From NCBI RefSeq assembly GCF_019972295.1, contig NZ_BLJA01000001.1, forward strand, positions 776,049 through 840,048: DNA of 64,000 nt, given 5' to 3'. This DNA is from Geobacter sp. AOG2. Its GTDB lineage: Bacteria; Desulfobacterota; Desulfuromonadia; Geobacterales; Pseudopelobacteraceae. Position numbers and translations under genes: made by a program. The notes under the pieces were generated by a model that searched no databases, had not been told where the DNA came from, and saw only the letters and a program-made list of their open reading frames with translations. Shown in pieces: positions 22,596 to 63,750 of this stretch. Every line of letters begins with the position of its first letter. Position 1 is the first letter of the stretch.

Positions 22596-23234
22596 GTGAT
22601 CACTATCGTTGCCGGCATAATGATGATCATTCTTTTGATCTGGATAATCGGCGGGTATGTGCCGACCATGAATATTCATACACCGGCCCATACGGTCAGG
22701 GAAAAGAGGGCAGGGTACGAAATCAGGGAGTACGAACCCTACGTCATTGCTGAGACGTTGCAGAAGCGGAGCGGGGACGAAGCGTCGCCCGGCGGTTTCA
22801 ACGAACTGTTCCGCTATATTTCCGGCAACAATGTAACCCGGTCCCGGCTTGACATGTCCGCCCCCGTGCTTCGGTCGGCTGACCGGAGCGGCCGGAAGAT
22901 TCCCATGTCGGCCCCGGTCCTGAAAGACGGGGCGGGTGGGACCGGCACGATTGCGTTTGTCATGCCTCCCGGCAAAAGGCCCGATGAGCTTCCCCTGCCA
23001 AAGAGCGCGGCGGTGCACCTGAGGGAAATTCCTGCCAGAACGGTAGCCGCGGTTTCATTTACAGGGTATGCCACGGATGCCGTTCTCGGGAAATATACCG
23101 CTGAACTGCTGGCGGCCCTGAAGCGTGACGGCATAGTGACGAGGTCCGCTCCGCTGATCGCGCTGTACAATCCTCCCTGGACTCCGCCCTTTATGAGGAG
23201 AAATGAGGTGCTGGTCGAGATTGTCTTGCCGTGA
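22596..23234 (+). CDS. SOUL heme-binding family protein, membrane-anchored
   Basis: A 212-residue protein with an N-terminal membrane helix (residues 2-20). A SOUL/HBP domain follows, recognised by EIREYEPYVIAET, the FNELFRYISGNN segment, the paired MSAPVL motifs and the closing LIALYNPPWTPPFMRRNEV. SOUL proteins bind heme or porphyrin. The role in bacteria is uncertain. GTG start with GAGGAGG upstream, 10 bases after the OsmC fusion, so the two are probably co-translated. A strong bidirectional terminator follows. Confidence 0.85.
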   Translation: MITIVAGIMMIILLIWIIGGYVPTMNIHTPAHTVREKRAGYEIREYEPYVIAETLQKRSGDEASPGGFNELFRYISGNNVTRSRLDMSAPVLRSADRSGRKIPMSAPVLKDGAGGTGTIAFVMPPGKRPDELPLPKSAAVHLREIPARTVAAVSFTGYATDAVLGKYTAELLAALKRDGIVTRSAPLIALYNPPWTPPFMRRNEVLVEIVLP

Positions 23235-23288: not shown

Positions 23289-23330
23289 AAAAGGGCCAGA
23301 CGGTCGTTTCCTTTACCGTCTGGCCCTTTT
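23289..23330. terminator. Bidirectional intrinsic terminator
   Basis: AAAAGGGCCAGACGGT and ACCGTCTGGCCCTTTT form a perfect 16-bp stem with a 10-base loop between two convergent genes. T-rich ends serve both directions. Confidence 0.85.
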
Positions 23331-23336
23331 GGTCCG

Positions 23337-23624
23337 CTAATCCCTGTGATGTTTGTCTTTGCCGTGTTTCTTGTGGTGCCCTTTGTAGTGCCCTTTGTGT
23401 TTCCCGTAGTCGTGCCGTTCCCCTCTCTCGCGGGTGACGACGCGCTCCCTTTCCACTATGACCGTGCGGGGTGGTGGAGGGGGCGCCGGTGCACCGACCT
23501 GTACCCGCACATTGGGCGTATTGACATCGACGCCGACTGCGACATTGGACGCGCCAGCGATGCCCGTCATGCTCAGGACACCCGCTAAAGCTCCCGTAAC
23601 TGCTTTCAATTGATAGCTTTTCAT
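23337..23624 (-). CDS. Small exported His/Lys-rich protein under a cGAMP-type riboswitch
   Basis: A 95-residue protein with a clear signal peptide (hydrophobic core about 9-23, cut near AGAS). A mature region VAVGVDVNTPNVRVQVGAPAP is followed by a proline run, an Arg/Glu-rich segment and a C-terminal tail with 8 His and many Lys in 25 residues. It should be exported, and the tail could bind metal or polyanions. AAAGGAG precedes the ATG. The 5' leader holds a GEMM-Ib aptamer and terminator, so expression should rise with cGAMP. I do not recognise the family. Confidence 0.75.
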   Translation of the reverse strand: MKSYQLKAVTGALAGVLSMTGIAGASNVAVGVDVNTPNVRVQVGAPAPPPPPRTVIVERERVVTRERGERHDYGKHKGHYKGHHKKHGKDKHHRD

Positions 23625-23682
23625 GTTTGTTCTCTTCTCCTTTCCCTATTAGGGCTGGTACGTATTTCCGGTGCCCAGGCGC

Positions 23683-23729
23683 AAAAAAAGCCGGGATGTC
23701 GAATTTGGTGATAGTTCGGCATCCCGGCT
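23683..23729 (-). terminator. Riboswitch expression platform: intrinsic terminator
   Basis: Read leftward: GCCGGGATGCCGAA pairs with TTCGACATCCCGGC, followed by seven T. The 5' arm of this stem is also the 3' part of the aptamer, so ligand binding and termination exclude each other. This predicts an ON switch. Confidence 0.8.
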
Positions 23730-23787
23730 GTCTCGGTGAGACCCTGTGGGCTTTCCGCCCCACCCTCGCGGGTGGTTTAGTCTTATC
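23710..23787 (-). ncRNA. GEMM-Ib (3',3'-cGAMP-type) riboswitch aptamer
   Basis: Read leftward, the element has closing stem GATA/TATC, then ACTAAACC, a hairpin CACCCGCGAGGGTG, then GGGCGGAAAGCCC, then a second hairpin region around GGGTCTCACCGAGAC and the 3' block CAGCCGGGATGCCGAA. This closely follows, from memory, the Geobacter aptamer shown to bind 3',3'-cGAMP. The position equivalent to G20 of the c-di-GMP class reads A, the change linked with cGAMP preference. It controls the downstream small exported protein through an overlapping terminator. Confidence 0.85.
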
Positions 23788-23934
23788 GTGTATCTGAGCT
23801 GTTTGTGAAACGGTTGCCACTATAGAGAACAATTCCGGTCGTGTCAATCATCGGGGCGCATGGGATGCAGTTATCGGCACGATGACGGGACCTGGTCGGG
23901 GCAACCCTGAGGGCTGCCCGAGCGGAGGCTGTTG

Positions 23935-24474
23935 TCAGAGGGTTTCACCCCGGCCGGATACCTGGGCTATGGCAGGGATGATGCGGTAGTCGCGCTGGAA
24001 AACCAGGTTGTGCAGGTCGGCCGAGGCGATCGCCCGCAGTGTGGGTAACTCGGCTTCGGCGTCGGCGTCGCTGAAGACGTTGAGCGGCCAGACTCCCACT
24101 GTCCCGCCCCGCAGGTGAGGGTGGTGAAAGTCACGCCCGTAGAAGGCCTGCAGCGTGACGGGCTGGGCGTTCGCCTGTTCCTGCTCGGGCCACGCAAGGG
24201 TCCACGTTGCCATGAGGTCGCCGTTGGGTGACCTGACCAGGTTGCTGGCGGTGACGGACCCTGTACCCAACAGCAGGGCGGCGTTGATTTCGTCGAGAGT
24301 CTGCCGGGCGTAGGAGTCAAGATAGGCAACGGCGGCGGCGAAAAGCTGCTCCTTGTCGGCGCGGGTGACGGCACCGTTGCCGTGGGTGCCATCGCGCAGG
24401 TCTGCGAAGTGCCGCAACAGCCCCTGCAGGTGGACCGGAACCTGGTCGATGCCGTGATGGTTGGTGACGGTCAT
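23935..24474 (-). CDS. Conserved hypothetical protein
   Basis: A 179-residue soluble protein starting MTVTNHHGIDQVPVHL with no signal peptide, membrane helix or cysteine. The N-terminal third is helical and the middle holds the strand-rich segment LMATWTLAWPEQEQANAQPVT. The C-terminus is mixed. GGAG lies 9 bases before the ATG, and codon use fits the neighbours. I do not recognise the family. It is transcribed leftward after the thioesterase and YchJ genes but is separated from them by 80 bases. Confidence 0.55.
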   Translation of the reverse strand: MTVTNHHGIDQVPVHLQGLLRHFADLRDGTHGNGAVTRADKEQLFAAAVAYLDSYARQTLDEINAALLLGTGSVTASNLVRSPNGDLMATWTLAWPEQEQANAQPVTLQAFYGRDFHHPHLRGGTVGVWPLNVFSDADAEAELPTLRAIASADLHNLVFQRDYRIIPAIAQVSGRGETL

Positions 24475-39389: not shown

Positions 39390-40556
39390 ATGACGCGCAA
39401 GAGATCGAACATTCCTGAGAACGATGCCGCTTTGGAGCGGGCTGAGCGGACACTTTCCAAACTCTCCTCCCCCTCGGTGGATCTTGCCGCCGAATATGGC
39501 GCCCTTGCCGACAGCTACCGGGGCTTGCTGCGGAAACTGAACAAGACGCTCGTCATCAGCGATACTTACCAGATGCAACTCCGGGAGTTGATGAAACAGA
39601 TCGAGGATACCACCTACAAGTATCGTCAACTCAAGGATGTTGCCTTGCCGCTCTGCGTCTATTGTAAAAACATCCGTACCGACAATGATTATTGGCAGCG
39701 TCTTGAAACCTATTTCGGCACCCATGCGGACATCATGTTCAGTCACGGAATCTGCCCCGAATGCATCAAGGCCACCACCCGCCAACTGGGTACCTGGCAG
39801 CAAAGAGAGACCTTCCCGGACATCCCGGTGACCTTGGAATCGCCCGTTGTCCCGAATGCTCCGAAACCGGCTGAAGATGAAGTCCTCAAGGAGCTGCACA
39901 GCCTGCTTCAGCGGAGTGCCGCAGACGGCAATCCGCTCACGCCCCAGTTGGAGCGGGTTGTGGGCAAGCATGCCAAGCTCCTGCGGCGTTTCAACAAGAT
40001 ATTCACCATCAGTGACGGGTACCAGTCACAGCTCATGGACCTGAAGGCGCGGTTGGAATTCTCGGCCCGGACCGATCTCCTCACCGGCATTGCCAATCGA
40101 TGGGAGATCATGGCCCGGCTGGAGTCGGAGAAGAGCCGATCCGAGAGATACAAAAAGAACTTTTCCATCCTGATCGGCGATCTTGATCATTTCAAGGAGA
40201 TCAACGACAATCACGGACATATGGCCGGGGACCGTGTCCTCAAGGCGGTTGCCGAGATTTTGCGCGGGCAGATCCGCACAGAAGACTTCTGCGGCCGGTG
40301 GGGGGGCGAGGAGTTTCTGGTCATCCTCCCGGAAACCGATCTGCCAAAGGCTTGTTCGGTGGCCGCAAAACTCCTTGCCAAGGTGCGGAAAACGGCCGTG
40401 CCGTGGGAGGGGAGGAGGATATCGACGACCATGAGCATGGGGATCGGCGTATTCAGGCCGGGCATGAGCATCGACGGGTGTCTGAAACAGGTTGACGACG
40501 CCCTTTTCATCGCCAAGTCCGGAGGCCGCGACCGATTTAGCATGGTTGCTGAGTGA
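39390..40556 (+). CDS. siaD: SiaD-like diguanylate cyclase with duplicated stalk and CxxC-CxxC module
   Basis: A 388-residue cytoplasmic protein, longer than P. aeruginosa SiaD (about 256). The stalk segment LLRKLNKTLVISDTYQMQL (about 46-64) is repeated at 197-215 (LLRRFNKIFTISDGYQSQL). Between them lies a module with C89xxC92 and C122xxC125 (SHGICPEC), known in Geobacter signalling proteins. The GGDEF domain has GGEEF at 305-309, an intact RxxD inhibitory site (296-299) and the GHxxGD Asp expected of a c-di-GMP synthase. SiaC should bind the stalk. Confidence 0.9.
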   Translation: MTRKRSNIPENDAALERAERTLSKLSSPSVDLAAEYGALADSYRGLLRKLNKTLVISDTYQMQLRELMKQIEDTTYKYRQLKDVALPLCVYCKNIRTDNDYWQRLETYFGTHADIMFSHGICPECIKATTRQLGTWQQRETFPDIPVTLESPVVPNAPKPAEDEVLKELHSLLQRSAADGNPLTPQLERVVGKHAKLLRRFNKIFTISDGYQSQLMDLKARLEFSARTDLLTGIANRWEIMARLESEKSRSERYKKNFSILIGDLDHFKEINDNHGHMAGDRVLKAVAEILRGQIRTEDFCGRWGGEEFLVILPETDLPKACSVAAKLLAKVRKTAVPWEGRRISTTMSMGIGVFRPGMSIDGCLKQVDDALFIAKSGGRDRFSMVAE

Positions 40557-52582: not shown

Positions 52583-53811
52583 CGTGTCCCCGCAAGGCAA
52601 ACCTGGTTCCTGCCTCTGTTTTTTGCCTTGTAGAGCGCCTCGTCGGCCGCCTTGAGCACATCCCGGGGCGAGGTCTGCCGTGCTCCCGGTTCGGCCACGC
52701 CGATACTGACCGTAACCGATACCTCGCCGGACCGGTGTGAGCCGGAACGGCGGCTTTTGCCCCGCTCCTCATCCTTGGGCCGGTCTTCCCCGCGTAGCGT
52801 CATGCGGTAATCGGCAATGGCCTGGCGAAGCCGTTCCAGGTGCGGGAGCGCCTCCTTGGAACTCTTGCCGGGAAACAGCACCGTGAACTCCTCGCCGCCA
52901 TAGCGGAAGGGGGAACCGCCCCCCGTCATATTCATCAGGCGTGCCCCTACCATCTTAAGCACCTGATCCCCCACATCGTGACCATAGGTGTCATTGAATC
53001 CCTTGAAATGGTCCACATCCACCATGGCAATGGCATAACGGCTCCCCAGACCCGGCAATTGCTCGTTGAGCACACGACGGGAGAGAAGGCCGGTGAGATC
53101 GTCGCGGAACGCCATGTTGTAGGAATCCTGAATGACGGCCATGATCTGAATGAGGGCGGATGCGGCGCAGAATGTCTCCGGCACATGGGGTGACCACATC
53201 CACCGGAACACGACGTAGAGGGTAACGCAGCAGGCGAACATGCTCCCCTCGATCGGTGAGCCGAGGGAGACGGCTCGCCGCAGGGCAACGCCCGCCGCCA
53301 GGAGGATGAGAAGCAGGCTCAACTGCGGCATGGCGAAGCGTTCGAGTGCCGGCCAGTGGACAATCGGCTGCGTGAGGGAGACCCACAGGGCATGATGGTC
53401 AAGGCGAACGGTCAACCACACGGCACCGGTCTGCACGGCAACGAATAACAGGCGCATGCGTCCCGCCGTACTCCAGAATCCCTTTTCACTCATTAAAGCA
53501 ATGAGCAGGATATTGAACGGCACGACAACCGTGAGGACGCGATAGATCAGCCATGCCTCCGGGGTATCGGTGCCGTGGGCGAGTTGGGTGCGAAAGAGGT
53601 AGTAGCATATCCCCACGGCCAACTGGGCGAGAAAGACCCGTCCCCGTCGGAAATGGCAGGCAAGGAGCATCCCTACGCCATACAGCAGGTAAGGGGCAAG
53701 AGGCACCAAGCTCTGCTGTTCCGGAGAAAGCCGAGGGATCTGGAAGACGATGACCCAGGCGGCAAAAAGAACGGCCGTCGGGACAAGAATTGAGGAGATC
53801 TTTCTGAGCAT
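52579..53811 (-). CDS. Membrane diguanylate cyclase without inhibitory site
   Basis: A 410-residue protein. About eight hydrophobic segments (5-245) form a membrane sensor module, followed by a GGDEF domain with the active-site GGEEF and a normal GHxxGD. The RxxD inhibitory site is not present at its usual place (SPFRY precedes GGEEF), so product feedback should be weak. Between strands lies a charged insertion (RPKDEERGKSRRSGSH). It is translationally coupled to dus. The start is uncertain; upstream Met codons exist at 53847 and beyond. Confidence 0.85.
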   Translation of the reverse strand: MLRKISSILVPTAVLFAAWVIVFQIPRLSPEQQSLVPLAPYLLYGVGMLLACHFRRGRVFLAQLAVGICYYLFRTQLAHGTDTPEAWLIYRVLTVVVPFNILLIALMSEKGFWSTAGRMRLLFVAVQTGAVWLTVRLDHHALWVSLTQPIVHWPALERFAMPQLSLLLILLAAGVALRRAVSLGSPIEGSMFACCVTLYVVFRWMWSPHVPETFCAASALIQIMAVIQDSYNMAFRDDLTGLLSRRVLNEQLPGLGSRYAIAMVDVDHFKGFNDTYGHDVGDQVLKMVGARLMNMTGGGSPFRYGGEEFTVLFPGKSSKEALPHLERLRQAIADYRMTLRGEDRPKDEERGKSRRSGSHRSGEVSVTVSIGVAEPGARQTSPRDVLKAADEALYKAKNRGRNQVCLAGTR

Positions 53812-63666: not shown

Positions 63667-63750
63667 TCATCGAACCGGCAAAACCAGGGTAACCTGGCGA
63701 CGCAAAGCTACCTGTCCAACCCAGATTGGATAGAGGGGCCGCCGAAATGA
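63667..63750 (+). ncRNA. c-di-GMP-I (GEMM-Ia) riboswitch aptamer
   Basis: CCGGCAAAACC, hairpin CAGG-GTAA-CCTG, GCGACGCAAAGC, a second hairpin around CCAACCCAGATTGG, then GGGGCCGCCGAA. This is the canonical GEMM layout, with TCAT/ATGA as closing stem. The G at the position that decides ligand choice is retained (GGCAAA), so c-di-GMP is the expected ligand. It controls the downstream cheW-like gene. Confidence 0.9.

Follow-up and report, generated by a model that had tools for sequence, protein, structure and literature searches.

A predicted cGAMP-type riboswitch before the gene of a small, probably exported His/Lys-rich protein in Geobacter sp. AOG2

Known cGAMP switches and the aptamer in the window

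Riboswitches for cGAMP, and the regulon they serve in G. sulfurreducens, are already known (PMC6456294, PMC8835794). They form the GEMM-Ib type of the GEMM-I aptamers, and their mark is A at the position of G20 in the aptamer Vc2. For the crystal structure 4YAZ of a Geobacter cGAMP aptamer, whose numbering is used here, the contacts named are G8, A9, A11, A12, U13, C15, A41, A42, G74, C75 and C76 (PMC6274999, PMC7288161). NMR of the pilM cGAMP switch of Geobacter describes a lower U-G pair in P2 and pairing of C75 with the ligand, and binding is lost once the terminator takes up that C (PMC9262584). In G. sulfurreducens KN400, one GEMM riboswitch is reported before the hypothetical gene KN400_1038 and another before the gene of an FNIII protein (PMC13194489).

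The DNA studied here (the window) is a stretch of 64,000 nucleotides from Geobacter sp. AOG2. A sequence-only reading of it had placed an aptamer of this type, almost identical in layout to the Geobacter cGAMP aptamer, in the leader of a small gene on the minus strand. The Rfam covariance model for c-di-GMP-I (GEMM-I), RF01051, bears this out: it matches the leader over the whole model with 43.2 bits, above the gathering score of 35 (E = 4e-5 over 64 kb), and by this curated cut-off the aptamer is a member of GEMM-I. Its alignment also gives A at the specificity position, as had been said. The location of the aptamer was right but the outer edge of the unit, put at 23787, was not; the aptamer runs a little further and a promoter-like site lies beyond it (Table 1).

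Table 1. Features of the predicted riboswitch and its gene, in window coordinates
Feature	Position	Strand	Basis
Sigma-70-like promoter TTGACA-17-TATAGT	23819..23847	-	11/12 consensus matches
GEMM-I aptamer, A-type (predicted cGAMP-type, GEMM-Ib)	23715..23791	-	RF01051, 43.2 bits; RF03167, 43.5 bits, below its gathering score
Selectivity base A (Vc2 G20, crystal 4YAZ A14)	23781	-	RF01051 alignment; numbering of PMC6274999
Aptamer junction A	23754	-	
C expected to pair with the ligand (4YAZ C75)	23719	-	hand alignment to PMC9262584 and PMC6274999
Intrinsic terminator (predicted)	23689..23729; arms 23729-23715 and 23703-23689	-	minimum-energy fold; 5' arm overlaps the aptamer 3' strand
T run of the switch terminator	23683..23689	-	sequence
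Ribosome-binding-site-like AGGAGAAG	23634..23641	-	sequence
95-codon gene, probably exported His/Lys-rich protein (family A)	23337..23624	-	ORF
Terminator-like inverted repeat and T run after the gene	23289..23326	-	seen in sequence

Within the clan, the nominally top-scoring model is the sister family RF03167 (c-di-GMP-I-GGC). We rejected it as the better family because its 43.5 bits lie under its cut-off of 59; its consensus, moreover, has G at the conserved junction A of the window and G at the selectivity position. Chance or misfolding was likewise rejected on the RF01051 score and a fold z-score of -4.85. A covariance model built here gives the window aptamer 96 bits, a figure from a training set that contained the window sequence; its own aptamer (L007) was otherwise left out of the training.

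By hand alignment to 4YAZ, the window aptamer has G8, A9, A11, A12, A14, C15, A41, A42 and the G-C-C of positions 74-76. All named contacts are matched except U13, which is G here, so that the near identity claimed earlier holds for the layout and fails at this contact. With the Geobacter GEMM-Ib switches pilM/Gm0970 and pgcA/Gs1761 the aptamer shares the layout, the A at the selectivity position and the U-G at the base of P2, and by count its P2 is as long as that of the crystal; it differs in the G at position 13 and in a P3 that is, by count, one nucleotide longer. P2 stands on a C-G and a U.G pair in the window and in all 13 distinct orthologous leaders; across these leaders P2 is paired in all cells and shows two-sided change at 3 of its 6 pairs. 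Judged by its sequence, the leader is a GEMM-I aptamer of the predicted cGAMP type (GEMM-Ib), both real and conserved.

Ligand choice and a candidate cGAMP synthase

Position 13 presumably corresponds to G19 of the c-di-GMP aptamer Vc2, and it carries G as that position does. A G where the crystal has U, a listed ligand contact, counts against the cGAMP reading. The aptamer might instead answer mainly c-di-GMP, or both ligands, and the gene would then track the general c-di-GMP pool. RF01051 indeed spans both ligand types, one Geobacter GEMM-I switch answering both is on record (PMC6456294), and the G20 position is described as influencing selectivity, not as a strict filter (PMC9262584). Against this, the selectivity position is A in 15/15 switch-bearing leaders of homologues of the window protein (family A), and the second GEMM-I aptamer of the window has G there. 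The genome, too, has 15 GEMM-I sites over cut-off (and one not), compared with none over cut-off in 14 control genomes, and by aligned base these are 7 A-type, 7 G-type and 1 U-type; both main types are therefore kept side by side. The genome also encodes a predicted Hypr-type synthase (below). A response mainly to c-di-GMP, or to both ligands, seems to us quite improbable, and we keep to the cGAMP reading. G at position 13 is unique to the window's aptamer among the 7 A-type aptamers of the genome.

Apart from the aptamer of the leader, Rfam gives a single match over cut-off in the window, the second aptamer (RF01051 family, 63667-63746 (+), 57.4 bits). It is G-type, that is c-di-GMP-like, and is followed by a terminator-like stretch and then by a gene that is CheW-like by eye. 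The U-type site (G000:C1:1617838-1617914) is the upstream partner of a tandem pair, with an A-type aptamer following before the gene of an fn3/Ig-like protein.

Ser348 is the mark of Hypr GGDEF enzymes, a description that comes with the T4-lysozyme fusion T4Lys-Gmet_1914 of G. metallireducens GacA (PMC6456294). The genome gave 33 GGDEF matches, of which 30 were read; of the three without a locus, two lie in proteins already read and one is C1:1816440-1816730. One protein, at C1:1990461-1990928, has both Ser at position 348 (GHLVGS) and an intact GGDEF motif, and receiver domains are matched by its N-terminal part. The PDB entry that it matches best, with Ser aligned to Ser, is 6d9m, in which a receiver-type GGDEF protein is fused to lysozyme and which is probably the T4Lys-Gmet_1914 structure. 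The genome thus encodes a predicted GacA-like (Hypr) cGAMP synthase outside the window. With GacA (GSU1658/Gmet_1914) it shares the receiver-GGDEF build and the aligned Ser; the predicted homologue lies about 1.2 Mb from the window. The three GGDEF proteins within the window (~1020-1454, 40068-40535 and 52603-53112) read GHSAGD, GHMAGD and GHDVGD, each with the canonical Asp, and none is Hypr-type, which agrees with the earlier statement that none of them looks like a cGAMP synthase. A further GGDEF protein of the genome (G000:C1:3115939-3116409) has Thr at the Hypr position (GHLAGT) and a GGDEY motif.

Switching and conservation of the switch with its gene

By the positions of its parts, the unit consists, in this order, of a promoter-like site, the aptamer, the switch terminator, a single gene and a terminator-like repeat. 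A consensus scan of the region found 1 promoter-like site where 0.4 were expected. When the 120 nt ahead of the aptamer core are searched in the 15 leaders that carry the switch, the best promoter match has, in all 15, 9-11 of 12 consensus bases and a 17-nt spacer (a comparison made without shuffle control), and the site ends 31-40 nt before the core. The consensus terminator scan of the region, which admits loops of 3-8 only, lists two sites, both on the other strand, and neither the switch terminator nor the repeat after the gene; the former is absent because its loop exceeds the limit of 8. Upstream on the same strand lies the gene of a 179-residue protein without Pfam match (23935-24474), apparently a separate transcription unit.

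As in the described Geobacter GEMM-Ib switches, the terminator is formed from the aptamer's own 3' strand: the two structures are mutually exclusive by sequence, with 23729-23715 shared. Ligand binding should then prevent the terminator, which makes this a predicted ON switch, and on this point the earlier reading stands. The full leader folds in the terminator form (-44.4 kcal/mol, z = -4.85), and 0/200 shuffles fold as well. When a 113-nt piece of the leader is folded stepwise, 102 nt is the shortest of the lengths tried at which the terminator helix is seen; the full aptamer junction is absent from minimum-energy folds of the partial transcripts, which ignore ligand and tertiary contacts. 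Across the 13 distinct leaders 94.0% of the terminator cells are paired, a share that drops to 47.3% or less when the partner is slid. Shuffling the columns still leaves 93.0% of cells paired because most of the terminator pairs never vary, and two-sided change is confined to 1 of 14 pairs, a level reached by 42 of 500 shuffles. The complementarity of the arms is thus kept across the leaders and covariation adds little. Opposite the ligand-pairing C, the window's own terminator has A where most orthologues have G, so this C is itself unpaired in the window.

The switching step may be pictured from the sequence and by analogy with the published pilM switch. RNA polymerase would start from the promoter. 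With 3',3'-cGAMP bound to the emerging aptamer, the P3/P1 strand would stay in the aptamer, the terminator would be blocked and the gene transcribed; without ligand, the same strand would pair with the downstream arm and transcription would stop. We consider it probable that the locus is such a cGAMP-type (GEMM-Ib) riboswitch, an ON switch at the level of transcription that serves one gene. It should be said that in G. metallireducens several predicted cGAMP-activated genes are reported to have risen in a strain with less cGAMP (PMC12285248), which counts against this explanation.

Conservation was followed through 141 genomes of the order, in which a G. sulfurreducens pilin query has 88% as the best identity listed. 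The family-A protein query gives 76 matches in 65 of the 141 genomes (E <= 0.01), the weakest of them including members of a second family (family B, below). Leaders were examined at 73 of these loci; the other three are two at contig starts and one that is the second piece of the same gene. Among the best 30 loci, the window's own included, 15 have an A-type aptamer and a terminator directly before the gene. In one more (L034) an A-type aptamer precedes an operon in which a gene for a DUF4382 lipoprotein-like protein comes first and the family-A gene second; one locus is cut by a contig end and 13 are without the switch. The aptamers at these loci were scored under RF03167 with 36.7-49.6 bits, below the gathering score of 59; RF01051 scores at the same places are lower and so were left out of the clan listing. 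The home-built model, trained on 13 of these leaders, finds an aptamer at 21 of the 73 loci. The five beyond the 16 are a second family-A copy (L141) and four family-B loci (L169, L177, L178 and L182). The leader alignment has 13 rows, two leaders identical to a third having been left out.

On a protein tree of 29 rows, from which the locus cut by a contig end (L032) was left out, the presence of the switch needs 3 changes as compared with 10.0 in shuffles, and none of 500 shuffles is as low. Twelve of the 13 switch-free homologues form one subclade with moderate support (86/83), in a tree with few firm forks (6/26 starred). Every one of the 13 switch-free rows comes from a genome with one or more exact A-type, T13 cores at other places, and the occurrence of 13 switch-free loci among the best 30 in genomes that carry cGAMP-type aptamers is a further point against the preferred explanation. 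The prediction that orthologues would carry the aptamer in their leaders held for the closest homologues (15/30 with the aptamer directly before), while 13 of the 30 are without it.

The exact A-type, T13 core is present in 119/141 genomes and a looser core (<=2 mismatches, so that some G-type sites are let in as well) in 127/141; the reversed-pattern controls shown for the exact and looser cores gave 0 in both. The G13 core has 24 sites in 18/141 genomes, 11 of them before family A, and position 13 is G in 11 and T/U in 4 of the 15 family-A leaders. G13 on these counts marks the orthologous switch of family A, though not exclusively. Among named genomes, a search with the single protein matched the pattern in 177 stretches, of which 0 were confirmed, and a search with the family alignment gave 28 loci.

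The secreted-type products and the cGAMP programme

The switch has one small His/Lys-rich gene behind it, whose product begins like an exported protein; here, too, the sequence-only reading was right. The N-terminus is signal-peptide-like by eye, and the last 25 of the 95 residues contain 8 His and 7 Lys. With the cut placed by inspection after residue 25, the mature part has 70 residues, no Cys and a pI of 10.3. Signal peptidase would release a strongly basic peptide (pI ~10.3) of about 8 kDa outside the cytoplasm, rich in proline, His and Lys and probably flexible. Columns invariant in 13 homologues include V-D-V, P, V-G and D-x-G-x-H-K-G, and the best-kept motif is D-x-G-K-H-K-G-H, followed by Lys repeats.

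Pfam has no match to the window protein at E <= 1 and only weak ones to the 13 homologues (best E 0.0077, a proline-rich membrane-anchor family). NCBIfam has no match over cut-off, and one far below its cut-off, while a PDB profile search gave nothing better than E 0.046. Predicted structures are of low confidence (pLDDT 62 from the single sequence and 57 from 11 sequences), which is not proof of disorder. The window switch differs from the described Geobacter GEMM-Ib switches in controlling a small basic exported-type protein that has no family name.

For the job of the protein we can offer a guess, itself doubtful: a polycationic surface or periplasmic factor that binds an anionic polymer, a metal or a mineral in the cGAMP-driven surface lifestyle. 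A periplasmic peptide that handles metal or haem, with the His residues as ligands, is about as uncertain a candidate. The cluster of His in the tail speaks for it, as does the adjoining convergent gene (22596-23234 (+)), which encodes a SOUL haem-binding protein; yet Lys is nearly as frequent as His in the tail, and the best-kept motif runs on into Lys repeats.

A second family has a similar build. Family B (L184-L213, with the four loci named above) comprises small exported-type proteins with a signal-peptide-like start, the motifs GYxPAPPGV and GRPYYVE, RRVY and a K/H/G-rich tail. The query matches in 62/141 genomes at E <= 0.001, some of the matches being family-A genes; two members scanned have no Pfam match and 12 have no NCBIfam match. 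Of 30 family-B loci examined, 21 show a match to the aptamer over its full length, and the selectivity base is A in every one; the aptamer lies no more than 250 nt from the chosen start codon at 18 of the 30 loci and 467-1234 nt away at three. A profile comparison of the two families (probability 97.7, 44 columns, 16% identity) is a hint of kinship and only that, because both are of low complexity.

As a yardstick, 30 sites of the looser core were examined, one of them without ORF and with a simple ORF rule that surely picked some wrong frames; none lies before family A or B by eye. At four of the sites (L081, L085, L101 and L103) A-type aptamers precede genes for longer (193-199 residues) proline-rich proteins of exported type, two being near-copies. 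With the window protein they share a signal-peptide-like start, a VNVNVGVP-like strand, a proline stretch and a charged tail, and one of two scanned matches PF12779 (WXXGXW) with 18.2 bits for a cut-off of 18, whereas family A of the window has no Pfam match over cut-off.

We would tentatively suggest, as a possibility that is still more doubtful than not, that in Geobacterales a whole set of secreted peptides with His/Lys tails, not so far described, is driven by cGAMP signalling. Families A and B would belong to it, with a common architecture and perhaps ancestry, recurring behind A-type aptamers. They may form a polycationic coat or linker that holds minerals or matrix, and the switch of family A may be a G13 branch of its own.

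Of the six other A-type loci of the genome, one leads to an fn3-containing protein and one to an fn3/Ig-like protein, behind whose gene comes a lipoprotein-like one. A third leads to an OmpW/beta-barrel protein, and a fourth to an Ig-like protein that has two CxxCH motifs. The products at the last two, an exported-looking protein of 118 residues and a protein of 800 residues, have no Pfam match at E <= 0.001. Hence 4/6 loci lead to Ig/fn3-like or outer-membrane proteins; the fn3 targets resemble the FNIII-protein target of KN400 (PMC13194489). These targets point to surface remodelling more than to cytochromes as the predicted theme of the regulon in this genome. The switch might nonetheless belong to an electron-transfer programme, as the sequence-only reading had it, the protein helping cytochromes to contact minerals. 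GEMM-Ib genes of G. sulfurreducens include OmcAHG, PgcA and OmcST and fall on loss of gacA (PMC6456294), and Oryzomonas is described from iron-reducing isolates (PMC7285026). In this genome, by contrast, none of 7 neighbourhood proteins scanned, the family-A protein included, matches a cytochrome family, only one of the six other first genes has CxxCH, with two motifs, and four of the six targets are the Ig/fn3-like or outer-membrane proteins just named. We therefore hold a part in electron transfer to be rather unlikely.

The kind of switch is known; its family-A output and the conserved link between the two seem undescribed. Neither family A nor its link to the switch was found in the open literature searched, a scope that does not extend to the target lists and supplements of the founding papers, where the gene may be listed as hypothetical.

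In closing, cGAMP riboswitches show which genes a bacterium uses for its cGAMP-driven surface lifestyle, and the known cGAMP pathway gains here a conserved output that is seemingly undescribed. A conserved, unannotated family of secreted-type peptides under such a switch is a testable lead to what this lifestyle involves besides the making of cytochromes. Position 13 is G in 11 and U in 4 of the orthologous switches, which also provide a natural series for measuring ligand choice.
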